A DNA stretch of 64,000 nt from Rhodovibrio salinarum DSM 9154 (GTDB lineage Bacteria; Pseudomonadota; Alphaproteobacteria; Kiloniellales; Rhodovibrionaceae). Positions 5,682-30,488 of the stretch are shown here, in pieces. The notes below the pieces were generated by a model. The model saw nothing but the letters and a program-made list of their open reading frames with translations, made no database searches and was not told the DNA's origin. Every line of letters begins with the position of its first letter. Position 1 is the stretch's first letter. The stretch covers positions 3,642,693-3,706,692 of the forward strand of contig NZ_KI911559.1 of the NCBI RefSeq assembly GCF_000515255.1, given 5' to 3'. A program made the position numbers and the translations under genes.

Positions 5682-7295
5682 ATGAGCGACGATGCGCTCA
5701 CCCCGGATGGGGACGCCGCCGTCGTCCAGACCGATCATGTGGTCGGTCAGGACAATATCCAGACACAGATCGGGCCATTCGGCCTCGACATCCACAACCC
5801 CGTCTTCATGATCTCCGGTCTGGCCATCTGCGCGTTCGTGTTTTACGCCCTCGCCCTGCCGGAACAGGCTGCAACCTTCTTCGGCTGGCTCAGGCCGGCT
5901 GTGACCTCGACCTTCGACTGGTTCTTCCTGTTGGCCGGCAACATCTTCGTGCTGGTCTGCCTGGGCCTCCTGATCTCACCGCTCGGCAAGGTGCGGATCG
6001 GCGGCACCGAGGCAAAGCCAGAGTTCTCCTATCCGGGCTGGTTCGCCATGCTGTTCGCCGCAGGCATGGGCATCGGCCTGATGTTCTTTGGCGTCTCCGA
6101 ACCGATCACCCACTTTAGTGAATCCGTCGCGTCAGGTGCCGGTTCTGCGGACAGTTCGGCACCGCTTGCCGGCGCGGCCGGCAACCCGGAGGAAGCGCGG
6201 CGCCTGGGCATGGCCGCAACGATCTTCCATTGGGGCCTGCATCCCTGGGCGATCTATGCGGTGGTTGCGCTGTCCCTGGCGCTGTTCGCCTATAACAAGG
6301 GCCTGCCGCTGTCGATGCGCTCGATCTTCCACCCGATCTTCGGCGAGCGGGTGTGGGGCTGGACCGGGCACATCATCGACACCGTCGCGGTGTTCGCGAC
6401 CCTGTTCGGTCTGGCCTGCTCGCTCGGTTTCGGGGCGGAGCAGGCGAACGCGGGCCTGGAGCATGTGTTCGGCCTCCCGGTCTCCGACGTGTCGAAGGTC
6501 GTACTGATTAGTGCGATCACAGGCGTGGCGCTGCTGTCCGTCGTCGCCGGCGTGGAAGCGGGCGTGAAACGCCTGTCCGAGATCAATATGGTGTTCGCGT
6601 TCTTGCTACTGCTGTTCGTGATCCTGCTCGGACCGACTCTGATGATCCTCAGCGGCTTCGTTGAGAACCTGATGGCCTACGGCGAATATCTGCCGGCGCT
6701 GTCGATGCCGTTCGCCCGTGAGGACGCCAGCTTCTCGCAAGGCTGGACCTCGTTCTATTGGGCCTGGTGGATTTCCTGGTCGCCGTTCGTCGGCATGTTC
6801 ATCGCCCGGGTCAGCCGTGGCCGCACCGTGCGGGAATTTATCTTCTGCGTCCTACTGGTGCCGTCGCTCGTCTCGGTCCTGTGGATGACCGCCTTCGGCG
6901 GCACGGCGATCAGCTTCGTCACCGCCGGCGTCACCGAAATCGCGGATGCCGATCTGGAGCTCAAGCTGTTCACCATGCTGGAGCAGATGCCGCTGGCCGC
7001 GATCAGTTCGTTCATCGGCATCGTGCTGGTGATCGTGTTCTTCGTGACGTCCTCGGACTCCGGCTCGCTGGTGATCGACACCATCACCGCGGGCGGCAAG
7101 GTCGACGCTCCAGCGCCGCAACGCGTCTTCTGGTGCGTCTTCGAGGGCCTGGTGGCGATTGCGCTGCTTTTGGGCGGCGGATTGGAGGCGCTACAGGCCG
7201 CAGCCGTCTCAACCGGTCTGCCGTTCGCGGTGGTGCTGCTGGCCGCCTGTTATGCGCTGGTGAAAGGCCTGATCCAGGAACCCAAGGCTAAATAA
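5682..7295 (+). CDS. BCCT family betaine/choline/carnitine-type transporter
   Basis: 537 residues with about 12 hydrophobic segments. The Na-linked glycine motif GMGIG (residues 128-132) is followed by MFFGVSEP. The BCCT signature with clustered tryptophans, W355-T...WAWWISWSPFVG (to residue 371), forms the substrate cage in BetP-like proteins. The SSDSGS stretch near residue 450 is also typical. It would import glycine betaine or a related compatible solute with sodium, fitting a halophile that also makes betaine. AAGGAGG sits at a good distance before ATG 5682. The substrate is not resolved. A strong hairpin ends the transcript. Confidence 0.94.
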   Translation: MSDDALTPDGDAAVVQTDHVVGQDNIQTQIGPFGLDIHNPVFMISGLAICAFVFYALALPEQAATFFGWLRPAVTSTFDWFFLLAGNIFVLVCLGLLISPLGKVRIGGTEAKPEFSYPGWFAMLFAAGMGIGLMFFGVSEPITHFSESVASGAGSADSSAPLAGAAGNPEEARRLGMAATIFHWGLHPWAIYAVVALSLALFAYNKGLPLSMRSIFHPIFGERVWGWTGHIIDTVAVFATLFGLACSLGFGAEQANAGLEHVFGLPVSDVSKVVLISAITGVALLSVVAGVEAGVKRLSEINMVFAFLLLLFVILLGPTLMILSGFVENLMAYGEYLPALSMPFAREDASFSQGWTSFYWAWWISWSPFVGMFIARVSRGRTVREFIFCVLLVPSLVSVLWMTAFGGTAISFVTAGVTEIADADLELKLFTMLEQMPLAAISSFIGIVLVIVFFVTSSDSGSLVIDTITAGGKVDAPAPQRVFWCVFEGLVAIALLLGGGLEALQAAAVSTGLPFAVVLLAACYALVKGLIQEPKAK

Positions 7296-27200: not shown

Positions 27201-27365
27201 ATGGCAAATGACATCGACGATCCTGATCGCGTGTGGCCGACCGGACTGACGATCAAAGAGTCCGAGGAGCTCCACAAGCACGTGATCGACGGCGCACGGG
27301 TGTTCTTCGTGATCGCGCTGTTCGCCCACCTGCTGGCGTATGCCTTCACCCCATGGGGCGGCTAA
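27201..27365 (+). CDS. pucB: LH2 light-harvesting complex beta subunit
   Basis: 54 residues, too short for ordinary gene calls. It aligns with LH2 beta chains: [14 protein letters not shown], then one membrane helix with FAHLLA and a C-terminal TPWGG. The His in FAHLLA is the B850 bacteriochlorophyll ligand, the first His of HKHVID and the Arg of GARVFF correspond to the beta-His12/Arg20 positions near B800. The N-terminus ([16 protein letters not shown]) is longer and more acidic than in Rhodoblastus acidophilus. AAGGAG lies 9 bases before ATG. Confidence 0.95.
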
Positions 27366-27389: not shown

Positions 27390-27533
27390 ATGAACCAGGG
27401 ACGTATCTGGTGTGTTGTGAAACCCACGGTGGGGCTGCCGCTCCTCCTTGGGGCCGTGACGTTGATCGCGCTCATCGTCCACGGATCGATCCTGGCGAAC
27501 ACCGATTGGTTCCCGGCCTACTGGGGCGGCTAA
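27390..27533 (+). CDS. pucA: LH2 light-harvesting complex alpha subunit
   Basis: 47 residues. It aligns without gaps to the classic LH2 alpha chain: MNQGRIW at the start, His31 in ALIVHGSIL as the B850 ligand, and WFPAYWGG at the end. Tyr44 and Trp45, which hydrogen-bond the B850 acetyl groups, are present, predicting a B800-850 rather than B800-820 antenna. Met1 should carry the formyl group that ligates B800. A near-perfect GGAGGT precedes the start. The C-terminus is short, ending two Gly after Trp45. It lies 24 bases after pucB. Confidence 0.95.
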
Positions 27534-27571
27534 CTCGGTTATTCCACGGATCAACCGGTCTCGTCGGCGCG

Positions 27572-27615
27572 GGCGGGGGCTGCCCTCGCCTGTGCCGGCG
27601 GGAAATTTTCCGCCG
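27572..27615 (+). terminator. Double hairpin between pucA and the downstream puc genes
   Basis: Two hairpins in a row: a GC stem at 27572-27590 (GGCGGG with CTCGCC, one wobble pair) and a long CGGCGGGAAA/TTTTCCGCCG stem at 27596-27615. In other purple bacteria such structures after pucBA stabilise the antenna mRNA and lower expression of the following genes; the same is inferred here. The T-run lies inside the stem, so partial termination is possible. Confidence 0.5.
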
Positions 27616-27644
27616 AAGGCCAGACGCTCATACGGGGGCGTGAC

Positions 27645-28364
27645 ATGACACCAATCGTGCGCTTTTACGCAAACGCAAAGAACGCCGAAAAAGCCGTGAA
27701 GGAGCTCAAGGCCGACGGCTTTGACGCGGCCAACATTCATCACTTTCAACCAAGCGCCGAGGGCGAGTCGGACCCGTCCAAGCGCGTGGGTGAAGAAATC
27801 GCCGCCGGCCATCTGCCCCAATCCAGCCAGGGGCCGGTCGAGCGAGCGCTCGCGCAGGGCCGACACGTCGTCAGCGTCTACGCGACCTACGGTCGCGCCC
27901 GCCCGGCTGTCCGGATCCTGGATGCTTGCGATCCCGTAGAAGACGAAATTCTCCCGGAATCGTACTCCGGCCTGGAAGAGACGCGCCTGACGTCCGAGGC
28001 ATTCGGGATCCCGATGCTCACCAAGCGGCGCTTCTTCACCATCTCGTCGGAGACGGGGCTGGCGAGTTTCCGCCATTTGTTCGGAGGCGGGCTGCTCACC
28101 AATAAACCCGCGCCGTTCTCCGGGGCGTTTGGTCTCAAGACCTTGTCGGAGCGCAAGACGAACTGGGAATCCAGCATGGGCTTGCCGCTGCGTATCGACA
28201 ATCCGGCATGGCTGTCCTCGAAGCTCGGCATGAAGACGCTGCTGTCGCGCAAGTCGGAGTGGACATCGAGTTTCGGCTTGCCGCTGCTATCCAAGTCACC
28301 GGCGCCGTTGTCCGCGGTCCTGGGCCTGCCGGTGCTGACGCAAAAGAAGCGCGACGCAGCGTAG
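27645..28364 (+). CDS. Unrecognised puc-operon protein with about 16-residue repeats
   Basis: 239 residues, no signal peptide, no membrane helix. Residues 1-100 look like a small alpha/beta domain (PIVRFYANAKNAEKAVKELK, FDAANIHHF) reminiscent of YflT/17M-type stress domains. Residues 115-235 hold at least six copies of a degenerate unit of about 16 residues, pattern S-x-x-F/L-G-L/I/M-x-x-L-S/T-x-K/R: for example SEAFGIPMLTKRR, SGAFGLKTLSERK, SSKLGMKTLLSRK, SSFGLPLLSK, SAVLGLPVLTQKK. The C-terminal half is basic. It lies between pucBA and pucC, so a role in LH2 assembly or regulation is likely; function unknown. Confidence 0.8.
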   Translation: MTPIVRFYANAKNAEKAVKELKADGFDAANIHHFQPSAEGESDPSKRVGEEIAAGHLPQSSQGPVERALAQGRHVVSVYATYGRARPAVRILDACDPVEDEILPESYSGLEETRLTSEAFGIPMLTKRRFFTISSETGLASFRHLFGGGLLTNKPAPFSGAFGLKTLSERKTNWESSMGLPLRIDNPAWLSSKLGMKTLLSRKSEWTSSFGLPLLSKSPAPLSAVLGLPVLTQKKRDAA

Positions 28365-28456: not shown

Positions 28457-29956
28457 ATGCCCCGCCTCCCCCATCTGACACGGAAGCTGACGACCTACTG
28501 GCTTTCGCTGGGACCGCGGTTCCTGCCCTATGCGGACGTGGCGCTGCCGGACTTGCCCTGGGCGCGTCTGCTCAGGCTGTCGCTGTTTCAGGTGTCGGTC
28601 GGCATGGCCCTGGTGCTGCTGGTCGGCACCTTGAACCGCGTGATGATCGTTGAGCTGGGCGTGCCGACTTCCCTGGTCGCGGTCATGGTGGCCCTACCGC
28701 TCTTGGCCGCGCCTTTCCGGGCCCTGATCGGGTTCCGGTCGGACTCCCACCGCTGCGAACTTGGGTGGCGGCGCGTCCCGTTCATCTACCGCGGGACCCT
28801 ACTGCAATTCGGCGGCTTTGCGATCATGCCGTTCGCGCTGCTGGTGCTCGCGGGCATGGGCGAGTCCAGCCATCTGCCCGCCTGGGTCGGAGAGATCGCA
28901 GCCGCACTCGCCTTTCTGCTGGTCGGAGCGGGCGCGCACATGGTCCAGACCGTCGGACTGGCCCTCGCGACCGATCTGACCCCATCGGAATCCCACCCGA
29001 AGGTGGTCGGGCTGATGTACGTCATGCTGCTGTTCGGCATGATGTTGAGCGCGCTTGTGTTCGGAGTGCTGCTGGCCGACTTCAGCCCCGGACGTCTGGT
29101 GCAGGTAATCCAGGGCGCGGCCGTGTTGACCGCTGCGCTGAACTTCATCGCCCTGTGGAAGCAGGAGCCGCGCAACCCGCCGCGCGGTGCGCAACCGGCC
29201 CAGCAGGACCCGAGCTTCCGGGAATGCTGGCAACGCTTTTGCCAGGGCCGCGACGCGGTCCGGCGGCTGGTCATCGTCGGGCTGGGGACGATCGGCTTCG
29301 GCATGGCCGATGTCGTTCTGGAGCCCTACGGCGGCGAGGTGCTGGGACTGAGCGTCTCCACGACGACCAAGCTGACGGCGCTGTTCGCCTTTGGCGGGCT
29401 GGTCGGTTTCGCGTTCGCCTGGTTCCGGCTGGCCCGCGGCGGCCACGCCTACCGGGTGGCCCACCTGGGCGCGCTGCTGGGCATCTCGGCGTTCATCCTG
29501 GTGATGCTGTCCGCGCCGCTGGATCTGACCAGTATCTTCCTGATCGGCAACTTCCTGATCGGCTTCGGCGGGGCGCTGTTCTGGCACGGCACCCTGACCG
29601 TCACGATGAACCAAGCACCCAAGGATCAGGCCGGCCTGGCGCTCGGCGCCTGGGGCGCGGTGCAGGCGACCGCCGCCGGCAGCGCGATGGCCATGAGCGG
29701 CCTCCTGCGCGACGGGGTGCAGTTGCTTGCCAGCGGGGCGGCGCCGGTGCTGGGCGTGGCCAACGCGGCGGCGGGCTACATGGCGGTCTACGCCTTCGAG
29801 ATCGCGCTGCTGCTGGTCACGGTCATCGCGACGCTGCCGCTATTGCGCCGGCTTTCGACCCCGGGCGAGTCGGCGACGACCGCCACCGGCGACCCGACGC
29901 CCGCCGGCGTGTCGATGGCGCACACAACCGAGGGTGTGGGCGACTCGCCCCGATAG
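28457..29956 (+). CDS. pucC: PucC/LhaA family light-harvesting assembly protein (MFS/BCH1)
   Basis: 499 residues, about 12 membrane helices. PucC hallmarks: LPYADVALPDLPWARLLRLS at the N-terminus, LNRVMIVELGVP in the first helices, GFRSDSH, and RRVPFIYRGTLLQF. PucC and its paralogues help assemble LH2 or LH1, perhaps delivering bacteriochlorophyll or apoproteins. Its place after pucBA on the same strand favours an LH2 role. The deformylase-like gene starts 10 bases after it. The C-terminal about 30 residues are Thr/Gly-rich and cytoplasmic. Confidence 0.92.
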   Translation: MPRLPHLTRKLTTYWLSLGPRFLPYADVALPDLPWARLLRLSLFQVSVGMALVLLVGTLNRVMIVELGVPTSLVAVMVALPLLAAPFRALIGFRSDSHRCELGWRRVPFIYRGTLLQFGGFAIMPFALLVLAGMGESSHLPAWVGEIAAALAFLLVGAGAHMVQTVGLALATDLTPSESHPKVVGLMYVMLLFGMMLSALVFGVLLADFSPGRLVQVIQGAAVLTAALNFIALWKQEPRNPPRGAQPAQQDPSFRECWQRFCQGRDAVRRLVIVGLGTIGFGMADVVLEPYGGEVLGLSVSTTTKLTALFAFGGLVGFAFAWFRLARGGHAYRVAHLGALLGISAFILVMLSAPLDLTSIFLIGNFLIGFGGALFWHGTLTVTMNQAPKDQAGLALGAWGAVQATAAGSAMAMSGLLRDGVQLLASGAAPVLGVANAAAGYMAVYAFEIALLLVTVIATLPLLRRLSTPGESATTATGDPTPAGVSMAHTTEGVGDSPR

Positions 29957-29966
29957 GAGGATCCCG

Positions 29967-30488
29967 ATGGCCGCGCTGTCGATCCTGGAATATCCCGACT
30001 ACCGCTTGCGCATCGCCGCGGCCCCGGTTGAGACCTTCGATGCCGAGCTTGGGCGCCTTGTCGACACGCTGTGCCAGACGATGCGCGAGGAATCGCTGAT
30101 CGGGCTGAGCGCGACCCAACTGGACATCCGCCAGCGCATCGCCGTGATCACGCCCGAAAACCCCGAGGCACCGCAGGTCTACATCAACCCCGAGATCGTC
30201 TCGCGCCGCGGTCTCGGCTTTGTCGAGGAGAGCTGCCGCTCGGTCCCCGGGGTCAAGGGCAACGTGATGCGCGCCATGCGCATTCGGGTCGAGGCCCAGG
30301 ACCGCGACGGCACGCCGTTTACGCAGGACCTGGAAGGCATGGATGCCGTGTGCCTGCAGCACGAACTCGACCACCTGAACGGCAAGCTGTTCATCGACCG
30401 GCTCTTCATCCTGCGTCGCCTGATGATCGGCTTCGGCGCCATCGGCAAGAAGCGCCGCGAAGTCCACGACCGCGAACACGCCGCTTAG
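29967..30488 (+). CDS. Divergent peptide deformylase-like protein
   Basis: 173 residues from ATG 29967 with TAGGAGG upstream. The metal site is intact: C90 in motif 2 and H132-E-L-D-H136 in motif 3, with E133 as catalytic base. Two substrate-pocket motifs deviate: motif 1 is LIGLSATQ (usual GVGLAAPQ) and motif 2 is ESCRS (usual EGCLS). It may therefore be an accessory deformylase with altered specificity rather than the housekeeping enzyme; no fmt gene is adjacent. It is the last gene of the puc operon, 10 bases after pucC, which is unusual because LH2 alpha needs its N-formyl group. Confidence 0.87.
   Translation: MAALSILEYPDYRLRIAAAPVETFDAELGRLVDTLCQTMREESLIGLSATQLDIRQRIAVITPENPEAPQVYINPEIVSRRGLGFVEESCRSVPGVKGNVMRAMRIRVEAQDRDGTPFTQDLEGMDAVCLQHELDHLNGKLFIDRLFILRRLMIGFGAIGKKRREVHDREHAA

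Follow-up and report, generated by a model that had tools for sequence, protein, structure and literature searches.

What does a gene do that stands between the antenna genes pucBA and the assembly gene pucC? The window analysed here, a stretch of 64,000 nucleotides from Rhodovibrio salinarum DSM 9154, raises this question by the gene order pucB-pucA-gene-pucC, all of whose features lie on the plus strand. The product of pucB (27201..27365; LH2 beta, 54 aa) matched PF00556 with an E value of 8.9e-10 and had its best PDB match in 7ze3_B, the LH2 beta of Rps. palustris (E 2.4e-22). That of pucA (27390..27533; LH2 alpha, 47 aa) matched the same family (E 4.2e-12), and its best PDB match was the alpha chain of Rps. 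palustris LH2 in 7ze8_A (E 2.5e-20). The nearest PDB relatives of both polypeptides therefore belong to Rps. palustris LH2, the rings of which carry a gamma subunit. pucC (28457..29956) encodes the LH2 assembly and BChl delivery protein (PF03209, E 2.9e-143). A further solved antenna, PDB 8z81, comprises nine copies of alpha and beta polypeptides close to those of the window (alpha E 3.4e-18); a literature search found no paper naming this entry.

The gene in question (27645..28364, ATG start) encodes 239 residues of what is probably an LH2 gamma-type repeat protein. It is separated from the pucA stop codon by 111 bp and from pucC by 92 bp. A preliminary description of the locus had placed a reading frame of this length between pucBA and pucC, which is confirmed by the assignment of its neighbours to PF00556, PF00556 and PF03209. 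Two close homologs (G045 and G049) differ at 18 first, 20 second and 82 third codon positions over 230 codons. Because the differences concentrate at the third position, the frame is translated and constrained. The host genome (4.18 Mb) contained a single match to the protein.

The spacer between pucA and the gene (27534-27644) folds at -61.4 kcal/mol (z -4.0), and none of 200 shuffled sequences was equally stable. RNA folding placed an intercistronic hairpin of 21 bp 3' of pucA (27559..27603), which possibly limits the expression of the gene relative to alpha and beta. With such a hairpin, alpha and beta would be made in larger amounts than the products of the downstream genes, matching the need for one gamma per ring.

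Distribution of the family and its linkage to puc genes

No Pfam or NCBIfam family matched the 239-aa protein or the other family members above its cut-off. Isolated weak matches, among them nucleoporin FG (two of the 16 members), encapsulin cargo and exosome, were taken as chance. Plasmid records gave no match to the family. A search of genome contigs with the window protein alone found no match; with an alignment of four members it found three loci, one in the Rhodospirillaceae MAG ECT2AJA-110-B and two in Rhodovibrionaceae MAGs. A literature search found no description of a repeat protein encoded between pucA and pucC, which does not prove its absence from print. The family to which the gene belongs is linked to LH2 and has no name in the databases.

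At an E value threshold of 0.1, homologs were present in 20 of 143 relatives, seven of them with strong matches (the host genome included; E no higher than 9.3e-21) and the other 13 with weak ones (E 0.0019 to 0.074). Wider searches found homologs in seven of 61 genomes from the order, in 14 of 385 from the class and in 13 of 398 from the phylum, as well as in 11 of 83 genomes of one further family, apparently the Rhodobacteraceae. When pucB, pucA and pucC were mapped by tblastn, puc genes were found beside 34 of 40 mapped homolog loci. Thirteen of these loci show the layout of the window, pucB-pucA-GENE-pucC; two carry a second beta-alpha pair before pucC, and in G124 pucC follows 2.3 kb on. 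Eighteen show pucB-pucA-pucC-GENE, among them G834, where the contig starts within pucC, and G666, where a second copy sits between. In the remaining three (G158, G155 and G007) the gene is on the opposite strand.

Conservation away from puc genes, which the preliminary description had set beforehand as counting against a role in the antenna, was encountered at six loci (G143, G206, G404, G719, G772 and a second match in G006). All six are weaker matches in which the profile covers the N-domain only. Four of them have long tails of the DUF2382 type, assigned by Pfam in G404 and by eye in G206, G719 and G772; the second G006 match is a different hydrophobic protein, and that of G143 is broken by stops. 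Several puc-linked proteins (e.g. G805 and G840) were likewise matched in the N-domain only, yet on reading they have repeat-like tails. Among the mapped and read loci the repeat-tailed form was seen only beside puc genes; G776, the second G835 match and the weak matches in 13 relatives lie outside this reading.

Within the sample of 385 genomes of the class, the family occurs in 11 of the 12 genomes that bear LH2 alpha. The twelfth, G187, possesses pucBAC, and the gene was not found within the 13 kb read. PUCC is present in 16 of the 61 genomes of the order, and all seven family-positive genomes are among these 16. Six family-positive genomes have three PUCC copies and the seventh, G049 (88% complete), has two, as do the nine family-negative genomes with PUCC. 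The linkage at 34 of 40 loci and the co-occurrence with LH2 alpha support the LH2-dedicated function proposed beforehand.

A gene for a peptide deformylase (29967..30488; PF01327, E 8.2e-41) accompanies this operon layout. It lies directly 3' of pucC in all 13 loci of the window type, and a more distant deformylase gene adjoins pucBA in G158. The canonical motif of peptide deformylase is EEGCLS; that of the enzymes in the 13 loci is mostly EESCxS, with QESCLS in G124 and G305 and EERCVS in G397. No deformylase gene was found in the 18 pucC-downstream loci or in G155, G007 and G187, within the 7-16 kb read. According to PMC8775250, the N-carboxylated Met1 of LH2 alpha ligates B800. Since this residue needs a deformylated N-terminus, the deformylase might be one dedicated to PucA.

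The proteins encoded downstream of pucC have the N-domain in common, and many of their C-halves carry repeats of 25-26 residues with cores such as FWPxPLLS. No clear repeat period was found in the C-halves of G612, G637, G840 and G846. A profile of 15 of the 18 proteins (A6, omitting G785, G803, which is a near copy of G805, and the long G832) had the window protein as its sole match among window ORFs of 40 aa or more (E 1.2e-13). Split profiles also matched only the window protein (N-half 9.6e-8, C-half 3e-9), and the whole A6 profile matched all 16 members of alignment A5 at E 2.5e-6 or better. Both halves of the window protein are homologous to the gene 3' of pucC in other genomes.

These homologs stand 3' of pucC, as pucDE does in R. 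capsulatus. Tichy et al. are said to have described in 1989 two R. capsulatus ORFs of 113 and 118 codons, the second of which was reportedly found in the 14-kDa subunit of purified LH2. PucE of Rhodobacter capsulatus has thus been reported as a 14-kDa LH2 subunit (LHII gamma). The shared place, and the agreement of 113 plus 118 codons with a family protein length of about 230 residues in total, suggest that pucDE is the pucC-downstream gene of the family. The two are likened here by position and length, and the window gene, unlike pucDE, precedes pucC, which 18 of the 34 puc-linked members follow. If the ORFs are as reported, the C-half may exist alone as an LH2 subunit. In the literature pucD and pucE sit in the pucBACDE cluster of Rhodobacter (PMC9231093), and for R. 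capsulatus pucDE is written as a single unit (PMC9603517, PMC4634722). The claim that the product is new among puc products found no support, the family also being found 3' of pucC in 18 genomes at the pucD/pucE position of pucBACDE.

The N-terminal domain and the repeats

The N-domain (residues 1-100; 27645..27944) is predicted by AF2 to adopt a compact beta-alpha fold, YflT-like or ferredoxin-like, with pLDDT values of 77-94 per block of ten residues in a model built from four sequences only. This fits the alpha/beta N-domain proposed earlier. In a VIA comparison the first neighbour was ActD of alternative complex III (8k9e_D, Z 7.7, with an rmsd of 3.0 across 82 residues); PII-like and further proteins came next with Z of about 6, and all of these are middling values. 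A Foldseek search with the full-length model found weak ferredoxin-like matches only (best E 0.019). The TPR-like chains 4y6w and 4y6c, matched by a seven-member profile at E 2.8e-6 and 3.6e-6, were rejected because sub-threshold pieces of one N-domain stretch had been summed over helical repeats.

PF11181 (YflT/GSP17M) matched residues 4-32 of the N-domain only, with 17.1 bits against a gathering cut-off of 26.2, and weak matches to it occurred in three of 16 members of one set and in two of 15 of another. It might be argued from this, and from the occurrence of N-domain-type matches on other proteins, that a stress-type YflT/GSP17M protein sits in the puc operon by chance. The predicted beta-alpha fold and the weak profile matches are indeed what the window protein has in common with YflT/GSP17M proteins and with YsnF-like DUF2382 proteins. 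However, the score falls short of the Pfam cut-off, DUF2382 is absent, and the C-terminal repeats were seen in the puc-linked family only, every repeat-tailed member that was read standing next to puc genes. We regard a chance residence as very improbable.

Across residues 104-239 the AF2 pLDDT is below 50. A solenoid, as had been suggested for the repeats, was therefore rejected, only the N-domain being folded in the model. Disorder of the C-half when modelled alone would be expected of a ribbon that is shaped by its partner.

An iterated position matrix (regex seed, 6-bit cut-off, C-terminal starts set by hand) located seven repeat units, starting at residues 115, 141, 157, 173, 189, 205 and 221. 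Unit 1 (residues 115-130; 27987..28034; 20.3 bits) precedes unit 2 by a step of 26 residues, and the last six units (residues 141-236; 28065..28352), which were also apparent from self-similarity, are in exact 16-residue register. The preliminary count of at least six units of about 16 residues is thus borne out and raised by one. In the self-similarity of residues 135-239 the top lag was 32 and the second 16, and none of 5000 shuffles equalled the value at the best lag. That 32 is the strongest period reflects the alternation of two unit types. The same analysis gave no significant period for the N-domain.

Elsewhere in the family the repeats recur every 25-26 or 12 residues or without a regular step, and only one unit is recognisable in G155 and two in G007. 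In the members of G207 and G384 some steps measure 12 residues and the core reads GEPKL; at both loci a second pucBA pair lies between the gene and pucC. Two proteins are unusually long. That of G832 (L149 3815-4861, 349 residues) has eight motifs in 25-residue steps and a terminal one, by eye nine. The second copy of G666 (L122 around 6262-6594, minus strand, about 340 residues) shows the same eight 25-step motifs and terminal one, again nine by eye; in this genome pucC is followed by a tandem of the long form and a shorter one. With nine motifs, each unit of a nonameric ring could be given one.

In the window repeats hydrophobic cores alternate with K/R. This alternation could point to a membrane organiser that couples LH2 to other complexes, with basic and hydrophobic repeats that bind lipid or more than one ring and an N-domain that docks on a partner. 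The best VIA neighbour of the N-domain, ActD, is itself a subunit of a membrane complex, its middling Z notwithstanding. Such a role is rather doubtful, since a periodic ring partner better explains the regular 16-residue register together with the gamma-like core described below. Membrane-surface binding by the repeats, which had been considered at the outset, would fit the analogy with gamma.

Comparison with LH2-gamma and a proposed role

In the account of the 2022 structures, Rps. palustris LH2-gamma is an extended ribbon of six repeats that arches over six of the nine ring units, the serine of each repeat ligating a BChl, and BLASTp is reported to have found it only in Rhodopseudomonas (PMC9618040). 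PMC5069747 places pucBAe at RPA1491/1492, three locus numbers from the gamma gene, RPA1495. Gamma is represented in the PDB by the entries 7zcu, 7zdi, 7ze3 and 7ze8.

Both proteins contain six tandem repeats of period 16 and partly share the core G-x-P-L-[I/L], the G-x-P of gamma recurring in four of the seven window units. Their LH2 alpha and beta are of one type, and the palustris gamma gene, too, lies a few loci from pucBA. In contrast to gamma, the window protein carries a seventh unit as well as an N-domain some 100 residues long, and its gene is located between pucA and pucC. The BChl-ligating Ser before Gly is replaced by F/F/F/M/L/F/L in the seven window units, and from this substitution no extra BChl would be predicted.

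When the C-half of the window protein was compared by phmmer with 177,635 distinct PDB sequences, gamma was the sole match up to E 10, at E 0.052. The whole protein matched PucA-LH2-gamma at E 0.24, among bacteriophytochromes with E values of 0.11 to 0.77, whose matches covered residues 10-82. An hhalign profile of the C-halves of eight of the 16 A5 members, those in regular register (G006, G028, G397, G384, G207, G158, G155 and G007 were omitted), scored 25.7 against gamma, the permuted mean being 8.4; six of 1000 within-repeat permutations reached the score, as did none of an earlier 150. Without the window sequence the score was 24.7. Permutation within the repeat with the period kept gave p 0.0098 for a BLOSUM profile (all circular shifts) and p 0.25 for a log-odds profile. 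Gamma was not matched by a seven-member whole-protein profile run against the PDB, by the C-halves of three other members or by the A6 profile, nor by the Rhodobacteraceae-type C-half (probability 0.11%). A search for gamma in 385 genomes of the class, 17 of one family and one of one order found none, an uninformative result as no Rhodopseudomonas is known among them. The resemblance in sequence between the window protein and palustris gamma is thus only marginally significant; the protein likely works like LH2-gamma, without necessarily being gamma.

We therefore propose, with reasonable though limited confidence, that the gene product is a gamma-type accessory subunit dedicated to LH2. Its C-terminal half would form an extended ribbon of the seven short repeats, six of them in exact register, lying along the outside of the ring on the part near the cytoplasm. 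Each repeat may touch one alpha-beta unit, in which case a single copy would brace and stabilise most of the ring. The N-domain would be a separate cytoplasmic module, possibly docking on PucC or on neighbouring complexes; alternatively, the ribbon might be released from it by cleavage.

The proximity of the gene to pucC in most loci, whether upstream or downstream, could also be explained by an assembly chaperone. Here the repeats would hold alpha and beta polypeptides transiently near PucC at ring closure, and the protein would be absent from the finished complex. Disordered repeats, as predicted by AF2, suit multivalent transient binding, and among solved LH2 structures the gamma of Rps. 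palustris was the only chain of this kind matched by the profiles and the window protein. Absence of the chain from the PDB says little, because no LH2 deposited there is demonstrably from a gene-bearing organism: the alphas of the two bearers compared, the window and G666, have their best PDB matches in Rps. palustris chains (E 2.5e-20 and 1.5e-13, respectively). Against a chaperone stands the resemblance to gamma, a stoichiometric ring subunit. We consider a partner of PucC unlikely, although less so than the other alternatives discussed above.

Returning to a gamma-type subunit, we tentatively suggest that LH2-gamma, rather than being peculiar to Rhodopseudomonas, may be one branch of an ancient family of LH2 subunits in Alphaproteobacteria that girdle the ring. 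This family might comprise the window type with 16-residue repeats and the N-domain, the pucC-downstream type with 25-26-residue repeats in the position of pucDE, and the palustris gamma as a stripped-down form, the number of repeats setting the share of the ring that is braced.

The usual models of LH2 show a ring of alpha and beta only, to which the palustris structures of 2022 added a third subunit (PMC9618040). If the family described here is of the gamma kind, LH2 with a third, symmetry-breaking polypeptide would be common. Bracing of the ring could then be tested by deletion of the gene in a tractable species, and the 14-kDa LH2 subunit reported from R. capsulatus would gain a structural explanation.
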